This document shows positions 54,301-62,306 of a stretch of DNA of 64,000 bases, piece after piece. Position 1 is the first letter of the stretch. Every line of letters begins with the position of its first letter. A program made the position numbers and the translations under genes. Source of the stretch: Allacma fusca (Eukaryota; Arthropoda; Collembola; Symphypleona; Sminthuridae); NCBI GenBank assembly GCA_947179485.1, contig OX359249.1, forward strand, positions 46,823,415 to 46,887,414. The letters run 5' to 3'. A model generated the notes under the pieces. It saw nothing but the letters and a program-made list of their open reading frames with translations, had not been told where the DNA came from and did not search any database.

Positions 54301-55419
54301 AATTGGTGTAGTAAGTTGTCAATTTCTGAAGTCTTCAAAATTTTCTGAATTTGTTTTACGGTTTGGACCATTCAGACCCCAAAAATTGACTTTTATGCCG
54401 ATGATATCAATTTTAGAAAATCTGGAATAGAATCACCTTTAAATGGGCTGTACAAGATGGAGAAACGTTTCGTCACATCCTATTAAAAGCGAACGTTGAG
54501 TTTCGTTTATAGCTTCCAATTAGCCAAATTCATAATCAAGAATCTAATATTGAAAAAACGTTGTGTGAAACCCGGAAAAGCTGTGAGCAAATACATTTAT
54601 GAATCTAGATATACACTACGAGGACTAACGTCATTACAACCGGAGTTTGACGTTTATAAAACTGACCGAGTACCTAATTGTAAGTCTAAACGTTGTCTCT
54701 GCATCGTTGTAGATACTGAGTTTAATATCACTCTAACCATAGAAGAAACATTTAGCCACTAAATTAATGTCCGAAGTTAGTTGAGGAGAGTTTAATTAGC
54801 GACATGTAAAAAAATCCTCCATAATTCTACTACCAAACATTACAAAACAGATACATCAGTTAGAACCTTAGATGTTTGTACATGAGAAAATAATTACGTA
54901 CAAATTCTGTCATCTTTCAATAACTCGAATAAACGTTTAGTATGAAAGTTGCTCCTTTCACGCCAAAATCCACACTCACATCCAATTTGTTGAGTAACAA
55001 ACACATAAGATAGTCGTAATTACGTATGATCAAGTCGATTCGGAACACAATAAAAATAATTAATTAATAATATTAAAATGCCGTGTACGTATTTCTGTTT
55101 GGTTAAATGGGAATGCTATAAGAATGATTTTTAAGGACAGCTATGTATTTTAAACAATAAAATTGTAGAATTTTCCTTACCTCTGTAGGTAGAGCATTTT
55201 CAATTGATCTGCAAAAAAATGCCCCTTAATATTTTTATTTTAAATTCTCATACATACAAATGCGCATACACCTTCGTAGTGAGTCTATTTTTCATTATTT
55301 CCACTTGGAAAGTAACTGTCGATGACACCATGCACGAATCACAATTGACATTCATGAATTTGGTTTACAGAAAACATTATTATTTAACTGAGATGCTGGT
55401 ATTGGTGCTAACGCTGGTA

Positions 55420-56781
55420 CAAGGCTATAGATAGTAACAGGTTCGGCCAAAGCGTATGCTGAAACAAACCCCTCGCTGTGACGTCATCAAAAGTGATTGC
55501 ATACTACACATAATATACAAGTATGTAAGCAATTCGCATAATAGTTTGAATAACATTTTTAATTCTTTTCAAGTATTACTATTAAATTCAAAATTAAACA
55601 ACGACAACAACAGAGCTTTTAACAAATTGTTTCCTTTTCACAAAATCAACCCGTGACTTCTGCTTTTTAGCAGGGAATTAGTTAAGATTAAAAACCCCAG
55701 CTGACATGGAAGCGTTTCTTGTCGTTTCTGTAAGTTTTGAATCTTGCTGTTTCCAGCAATGCCTTTAAATTTAATAACGACAGTGTGAACACTAAATCCC
55801 GGCTTATTATTATATTTTTAATCAAATTAAAAACGGGAAGGTCAGTAAAAATCTCTTCGTCAAAAGTCAAGTTGATTGTTCGTCTTCATAAATTTCTGTA
55901 TTTATGTATTGTATTTTATGTATATCTGTATTTTAAATTTCTGTTATTTTATTGGAGTGGAATTTGCAAAGATTCCTTGGTCACATCATAGGGTTTAGTA
56001 CTTACGCTCTTGATTGTCAATGTCTTTGAAATATCTTCTGTGCTCCAGTTGACTATTTTGTGACCACTAATTAGTTTTGATTGTACCGGGGCAAAGAGAT
56101 ATCTTAAGTGGTTTGTGTTTACTTAATGCCTCTTTTAGACTTAGACTTTAGAATCACACAATTAATCTTCACGATTTCACTCCTGTTTTGAAATAATTGA
56201 CTGAAGTTTCTTCATAAGCTCATTTTGATCGGCCTTGAATTTCTTGTGCATTTCTTGCAATAAGTTGTTAATTTCATCTCCAAATTATTTTTTGTGTAGA
56301 CAGTTACTTAATTTCAGAATTAATTTAATGGAAACTGGTTGAGTTCTGAATGGAAACACATTAAGAACCTTCGTACTTTTTAACATTTTTTTTAAGTGTC
56401 AAGTTCAAAAGTTTATTTTTCAAATCGAAGACATAAACACTTTCACTGAAATGGTCTGCACAAATCCTAGTTGCTACACAATTTCCATTTTCTTTCCTCT
56501 TGTTATACTTAAACCAAATCTTAGCCATTCGAGAATTTTTAGGGAACTTGTGAAATATTAAATCTGATACTCTGTTTAATTTGTTTTAGTGTTTTTACAT
56601 TCCGCTATTGCACAAATAAAGATCACATTAAATAGTTTTATTCAGATTGTCAATTAAAGACAAGTAGAGCGCGCGCTGAGATCACTTTTACTGACGTCAC
56701 AGTCCCCTGAATTTGTCCACCTCTCCGCCCTATTCATTCCTACGTGCGAATTGGCCGAACCTGTTACTATCTATAGCCTTG
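55420..56781 (-). mobile_element. P-element superfamily transposon, internally decayed, with THAP remnant
   Basis: A 1362-bp element. The terminal inverted repeats at 55420-55450 and 56751-56781 are identical over 31 bp (outer end CAAGGCTATAGATAGTAACA). Both flanks carry the 8-bp target duplication CGCTGGTA (55412-55419 and 56782-56789). A second inner block, GTGACGTCA followed two bases later by AAAAGTGAT, is also inverted at both ends. On the minus strand a THAP zinc-finger is readable: CAIAECKNT (56614-56588), then after a frameshift FHKFPKNSRMAKIWFKY and ICADHFSES (56555-56361 open). This supplies the C-x4-C and C-x2-H ligands of THAP. 31-bp repeats, 8-bp duplications and THAP together identify the P superfamily. 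The catalytic domain was not found, so it cannot be autonomous. Confidence 0.9.
56361..56614 (-). pseudogene. THAP DNA-binding domain of P-element transposase, frameshifted
   Basis: The N-terminal zinc-ligand part (CAIAECKNT) and the body (FHKFPKNSR...W...ICADHF) lie in different frames, with in-frame stops between them; the body ends at a stop at 56361. In working P elements THAP is the N-terminal DNA-binding domain of the transposase and recognises sites near the ends. The break could also hide an intron, but no good splice pair was seen in the short gap. Confidence 0.8.
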
Positions 56782-57327
56782 CGCTGGTAACGAAAAATTA
56801 TGTATGCAATTTTTTGTGGGACCACTTCAGCTGATTTTTTAAAATTACACGTTTTCCGGTGATCTTACAAGTTTCTATGATTTCTCCTCATCAGGAATAA
56901 AGAATATATATCTTCCCTTTTCATAAGAAAAAATAAAAAAGTAATACAATGTTTCATTAAATGAAATGTAAAATGCAATTATCTGGATCCTTTTGCTTAT
57001 ACTTGCACGTGCGCTTTTATTTGTAGGTACAGCTATTTACTTAAAATGCACATGATAACACAAATACAAAGCTCCGCGTTTTTCCACCTCAAAGTGAGCT
57101 ACAAAATAATCAGTAAATACGCATGCTTCTAGTTATGAAAGTGCTTGGCAAATAAAACCATTTCACGTGTTGAGATCAACATATGCAGCTGGGACGAAAA
57201 TTAATACATGATACAAAGTTTTGATAACCAGATTAAATACATTTAACTACAGAATATGTCTATGTAGCTGTAGTGTCTATGAGCCAGCAAATTCTAATGT
57301 TTTCCATAAAGCTAACCTACAGACAGG

Positions 57328-60560: not shown

Positions 60561-62306
60561 ATGGAAAATTCGCAAGGTAGTCAGCCGTTGCAACCTTCGG
60601 TGGCCCCAAATACACCGAGTCCATCCAATTCTCCGTTGGATCCCAGGTAGTCACTGATTGGAGTTAAAATGTTTGAGGGGGGGATTGAGTGGCTTGTAAA
60701 ATGTTATAGAATTATGATGTAATACTGTGGAGGTATTTTTTGGAATGAGTAAGTTGGAGTGTAATAATAATTATTATGTATTGGGAATTAATGGAATGGT
60801 CTTATTTTTGAAAACCTTAGCATGCAAGTCAGCTTGAAGAATATTCAAAATGTGATACGACTCACGAAGGAGAACATTGATGCCCTGAATGATCGGTTCG
60901 CGGGGTTCCAAGATCCTCCGGCAATGTATCTCCAGGAGTATTCGGAACTGACGAGTAAATTACATGATTTAGAAGCTAAGGAACAAGAATTAAAGGAACG
61001 AATTGTGAATGATAATGAAAATATACGCGACACGTCTCCTCAACTTCGTTCTATTACCGCACAATCCAACTATTTCGAAGAGTACTCGGCTTCACAGTCA
61101 GTTGCGTCAGGTGATGAAGGTTTGTCTCCTCGATCCCCTCTAAAAGCAGTCATTAGAGCTCACTTACCCAATCAACAACGAACTTCGGTTCAAGTCAAGC
61201 CTGGCCAAACGGTTCGGGAAGCTTTAGCCAAAGCAATGAAACATAGAAAGTTAACTCCAGAAATGTGTGCTGTGTTCAAATTTAAACCCTCATCGTCTAA
61301 AGTACAAGTACGTTGGGAGGATGACATTTCAAAGTTAGAAGGGGATGAGATAACTGTTGAAATTTTAGACAAGTTTCCTATTACCACAAGTATTTCGCAT
61401 AATTTCGTTCGGAAAACATTTTTCTCCTTGGCCTACTGTGAATGTTGTCGAAGACTACTTTTTCAAGGGTTTCAGTGTCGAACATGTAATTACCGTTTTC
61501 ATCAGAGGTGTGCTGCTGGCGTGCCTGCACTCTGTCAACAAGTTCGAATGCAGAATACATACTATCAAATGTAAGAACTAAATTATTATATAATGATCAT
61601 TGTTGTAATAGTTAAATGTAGCCATTTTATGCGTTTCGACAAACTGCAAGCCCTTTTCGCATTGTGTGTTTGTTAGCATTTCCGATAATACTATTTGCTA
61701 GTTTAAACTCATTCCATACATTGTTGCGATGAGGTGCTTCATGTAGCAGCATATCGTTGATATTGATGATTGTTTGGTCTACTGATTACTTATCTAGACC
61801 ATGAGTCATTGTGTGGTCTTAGCTACACTAAAAAATGTATGTGCTTAAAAATCCAGTATTTTGATTCCCGTAAACTGGGTGATTATTTAGTGAGTAAATG
61901 TTTTCTATACGTTGCCTCTCCTGTCTTTATTGAATTCGTTAAACTGTCATAAGTGTATTACATCTTGGAGTTTTCTTTAAGTTGTAATCATGTTCATAGA
62001 GTGAATAATATATAACAAAATATTGTGACTTTTAATTATTCCATTATATTTTCAGGCTATTGGCACAAAAATCTGAGAACACAACTGAGCCATGTCCACC
62101 CTCATCACCTGAAACCGAGTCACAGTCGTTTAGCAGGAAAAATAGCCATCCTCCATTAGGTCAGCGGGAAAGGTCCACATCAGCTCCAAATGTATGTTAT
62201 AACGTTGTCGGTCATCCAACCGAACTAACTGATGATTTTATTCAACGAATGGCCAAAGGAACTTACACAACCCTCCATGGTAACCATCCATTCATGCCTC
62301 TTTCTC
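60561..62306 (+). CDS. Raf: Raf serine/threonine kinase (B-Raf-like), 5' half; kinase domain beyond right edge
   Basis: Exons 60561-60646, 60821-61570 and 62056-62306 encode the regulatory half of Raf, the MAP3K that carries Ras-GTP signals to MEK. Exon 1 is a Ser/Pro-rich leader (MENSQGSQPLQP). Exon 2 (750 nt) holds three domains. The BRS domain (about residues 35-90; NIQNVIRLTKENIDALNDRF) is found in B-Raf and invertebrate Raf and binds KSR. The Ras-binding domain spans about 139-215, with the Ras-contact arginines of IRAHLPNQQRT and HRKL. The cysteine-rich C1 zinc finger (about 222-267) runs from HNFVRKTFF to CQQ. Exon 3 contains the inhibitory 14-3-3 site RSTSAPNV (Ser321, equivalent to human CRAF Ser259). 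I end exon 3 at the strong donor C|GTGAGT (62306); the weaker CATG|GTAACC at 62279 is an alternative. No kinase exon is visible before base 64000. The start is the first ATG and the frame stays open into a good donor. Confidence 0.96.

Follow-up and report, generated by a model that had tools for sequence, protein, structure and literature searches.

How does a transposon come to have perfect ends when the gene between them is broken? The question is raised by an element of 1362 bp at positions 55420-56781 of the window, by which we mean the whole 64-kb stretch of Allacma fusca DNA that was analysed and within which all element positions are counted. The initial annotation assigned this element to the P superfamily and offered two histories for it, namely trans-mobilisation of a dead copy by an active relative or recent loss of coding. 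As argued below, the element is very probably a non-autonomous, internally deleted member of the P superfamily that was mobilised in trans by a P transposase. Its family, a clean example of non-autonomous P elements, is ordinary and of a kind already known, and two possible leads come from it, a shared palindrome and cross-mobilisation.

The ends of the element, its terminal inverted repeats (TIRs) and its sub-terminal features are arranged as follows.

55412-55419, no strand: left copy of the 8-bp target-site duplication, CGCTGGTA
55420-55450, plus strand: left 31-bp TIR, at the 3' end of the relic gene
55476-55497, plus strand: sub-terminal inverted repeat of 22 nt, 91% complementary to 56681-56702
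55479-55486, no strand: TGACGTCA palindrome, starting 60 nt from the left end
56681-56702, minus strand: sub-terminal inverted repeat, partner of 55476-55497
56692-56699, no strand: TGACGTCA palindrome, starting 83 nt from the right (THAP) end
56751-56781, minus strand: right 31-bp TIR, at the 5' end of the relic gene
56782-56789, no strand: right copy of the 8-bp target-site duplication, CGCTGGTA

The two arms are complementary at 31/31 positions and their match ends at base 31, a length within the 27-32 bp given for the short TIRs of flies and mosquito (PMC1562414 and PMC7776569). The exact ends and the exact flanking copies given by the initial annotation are thus both borne out. When the joined flanks were searched against the genome (G000; 392.7 Mb in 91 contigs), the sole match was the window locus itself, in two pieces (query 1-100 and 93-190) that overlap by exactly 8 bases. 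There is no empty allele of the insertion in the assembly, where the flanks are present once, with the insertion. Some 4 kb from the element, at 60792-61574 of the window (plus strand), lies an open frame for the N-terminal part of a Raf kinase, whose relatives carry RBD and C1 domains and whose best named match is from Ephemera danica (62%).

The interior of the element holds pieces of a decayed gene on the minus strand. They are listed here with reference to L068 and L080, two P transposase copies of the same genome that are described further below.

55665-55775, minus strand: relic of a later transposase part, 49% identical to residues 426-455 of the L068 open reading frame (ORF)
55691-55885, minus strand: 65-aa open piece, weak, seemingly across the internal-deletion junction
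55955-56095, minus strand: relic of the helix-turn-helix region, 40% identical to residues 89-135 of the L068 ORF and 69% identical to L080 at the amino acid level
56180-56284, minus strand: possible relic of a coiled-coil or dimerisation region, weak alone
56364-56585, minus strand: main open piece of the THAP domain relic, with a Pfam THAP match
56579-56641, minus strand: N-terminal THAP cysteines in another frame, separated by a frameshift from the main THAP piece

The frameshifted minus-strand THAP domain had been recognised in the initial annotation, which named a failed profile search as evidence against its reading. Instead, the stretch 56585-56364 matches PF05485 (THAP) with E=3e-8 and 34.8 bits (cut-off 23.9). 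A copy from a sister sub-family has an open THAP piece (E=4.5e-12), and the window THAP is 42% identical to that of L068 (E=2.5e-16). The helix-turn-helix region matches L080 with E=1.4e-17 at its 69% identity, and the DNA of 55956-56233 is 80% identical to L080. The THAP piece, the helix-turn-helix region and one later piece are collinear with P transposases of the same genome. Within the 65-aa piece, the first part (read via the sister copy L092, 93%) aligns before the missing core and the later part (E=0.003 to L067) aligns after it. Unrelated Pfam families match the coiled-coil and later pieces below threshold, and an RNA polymerase in the PDB likewise matches the helix-turn-helix piece of a sister copy; these matches are noise. 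In the public protein set, no candidate had three words in common with the THAP piece of a sister copy, a result that has no bearing on the assignment.

In L068 numbering, the matches of the window element cover residues 89-135 and 426-455. The first match extends to residue 164 in sister copy L092, and the weak L067 match puts the start of the later part somewhat earlier. Residues ~165-410 and everything past ~455 were not detected in the relic, and the catalytic positions 181, 253 and 480 of the L068 ORF all lie outside its matched parts. Similarly, the window locus is not among the 36 matches to PF21787, and the catalytic core of an autonomous P member was not found there. There is no intact short THAP protein of the KP kind either, as the window THAP is split by the frameshift. 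The element also differs from a P-MITE with a centre unrelated to P, since its interior holds P pieces.

Fuller relatives show what these ends belong to. The core of L080, on C9, was used as a query and gave at least 41 matches (40 of 71 candidates scored). Among the matches listed, only C9:25373719-25374639 and C1:48637634-48639197 reach beyond core position 342. The latter lies in a copy of 3820 bp (C1:48636778-48640597) that has the ends of the window family, and the longer copy between the same ends for which the initial annotation had proposed a search is therefore present, in broken form. Its TIR arms agree with each other at 29/31 positions, its ends are identical to those of the window element at 112/128 and 91/98 positions, TGACGTCA stands at 83 and 60 exactly as in the window element, and its duplication agrees at 7/8 positions. 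Its transposase core is 92-93% identical to that of the C9 copy, which matches PF21787 with E=1.4e-7. Because this one copy joins the same ends to a P core, the window-type ends are those of a P transposase element. The 8-bp duplication, the short TIRs, the N-terminal THAP domain, the collinear relic pieces and the P core of the fuller relative all place the window element in the P superfamily. However, the core of the C1 copy is broken by ~670 bp of unmatched sequence and the C9 copy has a stop within the RNase H stretch. There is no intact transposase with exactly the window-family ends among the matches listed, and these matches thus do not identify the source of the recent burst of copies.

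The window element has many short relatives. There are at least 111 matches to the 1362-bp query in the genome (40 of 122 candidates scored). Allowing up to 3 mismatches, a 29-nt TIR pattern matches 82+82 times genome-wide and its reversed control 0+0 times, which excludes chance; 100 of the 164 TIR matches were read out. We examined 47 loci (40 plus 7, with L092 and L093 of the 40 re-read with longer limits), and exact 8-bp duplications are present at 33 of them, all 33 different. The other 14, which are kept in the count, comprise truncated loci, loci with one or more mismatched bases and loci where the duplication is offset by one. Ends or duplications unlike those described, which would have spoken against the initial annotation, were looked for in the other copies and did not occur. 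One locus, L092 (C10:51374776-51379133), carries a foreign insert of ~2.8 kb at which the matches overlap by 8 bases (query 1089-1096), and this insert is probably another nested element with its own 8-bp duplication.

A weak palindrome lies outside the duplication at the 33 exact sites, where ATTCA at -6 to -2 has its mirror image, TGAAT, at +9 to +13. Single positions reach p=4e-5 and 1.6e-4 at best, uncorrected, and 3 of the 10 tested are above p 0.05. Paired positions exceed shuffles by only ~1.4-2.1 standard deviations. The GC content is 45% in the duplications and 35% in the flanks.

Five other copies share 99.5-99.9% identity with the window copy, and each of the resulting six near-identical copies has 0-3 substitutions from the group majority. 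One more copy is 97% identical, gaps left out. Other sub-families are 88-90% identical to the window copy without gaps, or ~80-85% by BLAST with gaps counted, and some of them reach 99-100% identity within themselves, which indicates several bursts. The full-length copies that were aligned (n=28, the six near-identical ones among them) measure 1313-1368 bp. Further internal deletions occur in L098, L099 and L100; in L098 and L100 the sequence on either side of the gap matches a full copy at 98.8-99.8% identity, and these two deletions are recent as well.

These copies also bear on when coding was lost. At 1313-1368 bp they are too short for the core, the six near-identical ones included, and the loss of coding thus preceded the recent burst. 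Substitutions were counted between one copy of the window sub-family and four other copies. Across these four comparisons, the outermost 100 columns show 5% at the THAP end and 2-7% at the opposite end, the THAP relic 14-23% and the remainder 9-11%. Single 100-column blocks are less even, with 3% in the THAP-start block of one comparison and 3% in one interior block of another. Conservation of the ends while the THAP relic drifts fits the trans-mobilisation of already dead copies and does not fit recent loss of coding. We infer that an ancestor of ~3 kb would have encoded a THAP-bearing P transposase, and that deletion and decay would have removed the catalytic parts, sparing both ends, the sub-terminal sites and some decayed remnants of the coding sequence. 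Acting in trans, a P transposase would then have recognised the ends, excised the element and reinserted it elsewhere, each time with an 8-bp duplication, and the six near-identical copies would represent the latest burst. The history preferred here is one that the initial annotation had offered, and its dead copy stands, given the deletion shared by 28 short copies. The active relative is unproved, the matches listed holding no intact transposase with the same ends.

Could the recent burst have been driven by a different P family? This variant of trans-mobilisation is quite possible, although we do not favour it, and its best candidate is L068 (C1:52416185-52419988). This copy measures 3804 bp and has an exact 8-bp duplication, ATCCGAAC. 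The outer 12 bases of its TIRs, CAAGGCTATAGA, are identical to those of the window family, and its palindromes stand at 81 and 59, compared with 83 and 60 in the window family. Its THAP piece is open (E=2.7e-18), and an open frame of 566 aa carries RNase H_N, GBD and RNase H_C domains; another, of 158 aa, has no Pfam match. It matches the Drosophila P transposase structure 6p5a with E=6.2e-69, and by eye it has the same residues at D230, D303 and E531; a catalytic role is given for these positions in Drosophila in the available excerpts of PMC7776569. Judged from its sequence, L068 is apparently an intact P element. Zebrafish Pdre2 is excised by the Drosophila transposase, although the excerpted text of PMC10983969 reports no similar binding site in Pdre2. 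However, the TIRs of L068 and of the window family diverge inside base 12. In addition, the L068 TIR has 15 matches with up to 3 mismatches, of which two form the only pair and 13 are unpaired, so that L068 is the only two-ended copy of this donor in the assembly and an active spell of the donor is not documented. A lost or unassembled master of the window's own family fits the evidence equally well.

Other P-like sequences were met in the same searches. Among named organisms, the best transposase relatives are from the springtail Orchesella dallaii (42-43%), although mobile genes say little about species. TIR-like repeats of the L068 family lie in the same direction, ~133-135 bp apart, at C1:12810159-12810320 and C1:12864400-12864829, each of which resembles a tandem repeat derived from a P end. 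Four copies of a distant THAP transposase group (L073, L074, L077 and L078, at C10:3056710, C12:388493, C1:24166590 and C1:24514476) are 99.4-99.97% identical across three chromosomes, which suggests a second recently active P-like family. L070, L071, L072 and L076 belong to a P family with CATGGTGTATTGAAGAG ends; they are 99.1-99.97% identical and their 5' ends are cleanly bounded.

The KP protein of Drosophila, which bears a THAP domain, suggests a role in which a truncated THAP protein regulates transposition and the copies persist for that reason. A THAP frame of 84-89 aa is open in 12 of the 21 copies outside the window's own group, and small Drosophila P elements can encode repressors such as the 207-aa KP (excerpts of PMC7776569). 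However, the window copy has a frameshift, no other part differs as much between sub-families as the THAP relic, and by eye no methionine precedes the open THAP frames, though a spliced start is possible. A repressor of this kind is very unlikely here.

The second history of the initial annotation, in which the window copy was autonomous and decayed after insertion, would account for perfect ends next to a broken gene. It is nevertheless highly improbable and we have rejected it, as the deleted structure is common to the 28 full-length copies aligned, covering all six near-identical copies and sub-families only ~88-90% identical to the window copy.

Scarcely credible is an element of another superfamily, such as hAT, with a captured host THAP gene, since the 8-bp duplications (also the length in hAT elements) are compatible with it but the THAP domain is accompanied by the helix-turn-helix piece and the later P piece, no hAT profile appears in the matches of the six pieces scanned (three from the window), and the coding-size copy with the same ends on C1 has a P core.

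The window element resembles several known systems and differs from them in detail. The TIR sequence of the Drosophila P element differs from that of the window element. Deleted P elements of Drosophila melanogaster (0.5-2.8 kb, KP included) share with it a 31-bp TIR, an 8-bp duplication and an internal deletion (PMC7776569, in excerpt), and the unequal distances of their internal sites from the two ends (PMC7776569 and PMC3688188, in excerpt) have a counterpart in the placing of TGACGTCA here. The start offset between the ends is 23 bp in the window element and 12 in Drosophila P, and, as a further difference, the window copy lacks an intact short protein. Excerpts of PMC1562414 describe P masters of Anopheles gambiae with TIRs of 27-32 bp and 8-bp duplications, and, alongside a small number of masters, amplified non-autonomous families of 205-2450 bp, which the situation here resembles; the centres of the Anopheles P-MITEs are unrelated to P, whereas the window interior is still recognisable as P transposase. 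Zebrafish Pdre/THAP9 likewise has multiple internally deleted copies, 8-bp duplications and sub-terminal inverted repeats, but the TIR of Pdre2 is 13 bp and its 12-bp sub-terminal repeats lie further in (PMC10983969, in excerpt). Galileo, also of the P superfamily, has a THAP footprint ~70 bp from the end, near the 60 and 83 found here, and unusually long TIRs with repeated sites, which the window element lacks (PMC3688188, in excerpt). Internally deleted P elements have already been reported from Drosophila, from Anopheles as P-MITEs and from zebrafish (excerpts of PMC7776569, PMC1562414 and PMC10983969).

Of 35 copies, 31 have the TGACGTCA palindrome starting 60 nt from the left end; one, truncated, has it at 64, in another it is one base off, and two lack it. 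At the THAP end it is found at 83 nt in 33 of the 35 and at 80 in one, and is missing from one copy in which a nested insert stands before the true end. Two families with CATGGT termini have it at 71-74 (5' ends only), and L067 has a version with one mismatch at 85 (5' end only). The genome thus has four P families with the exact palindrome and a fifth in which one base differs. An extension by 306 bases did not reach a 3' end of the CATGGTG family. In the 64-kb window the octamer occurs 3 times, compared with 0.7 expected from base composition, and two of the three lie in the element. There are none in 61 kb of chromosome-end and other stretches. Two of the 12 chromosome-end stretches carry TTAGG telomere arrays, of 775 bases at the end of C1 (L053) and ~3200 at the end of C9 (L057). 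Flies are not known to have such arrays, and the arthropod is thus probably not a fly.

In the two families with both ends read, the THAP-end palindrome is 22-23 bp further in, which is about two helical turns. The sequence of TGACGTCA is also that of the CRE/ATF site. Its place and asymmetry suggest a transposase site, and it is accordingly presented as a candidate site for transposase binding or for a CRE-like host function. Shared descent of the ends may also explain its presence. Tentatively, P transposases of this arthropod lineage might recognise the asymmetric TGACGTCA, or their ends and promoters might depend on it; it is kept in four families that have diverged around it. The shared site and outer TIR bases might then let an intact P family mobilise the dead copies of another. 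The 10-bp site of Drosophila P differs in sequence from TGACGTCA. The Drosophila sites lie at 53-63 and 41-51 and that of Galileo ~70 bp in, according to excerpts of PMC3688188; those of PMC7776569 assign the two Drosophila spacings to the ends in the opposite order. A literature search for the octamer in connection with transposon ends listed a single paper, on the piggyBac-derived CSB-PGBD3.

Several P families are documented here from one arthropod, along with numerous deleted copies and at least one element that is apparently intact. The observations also make TGACGTCA a concrete candidate for an internal P transposase binding site outside flies, with an asymmetry of the same kind as that of the Drosophila P sites but with a different sequence and spacing.
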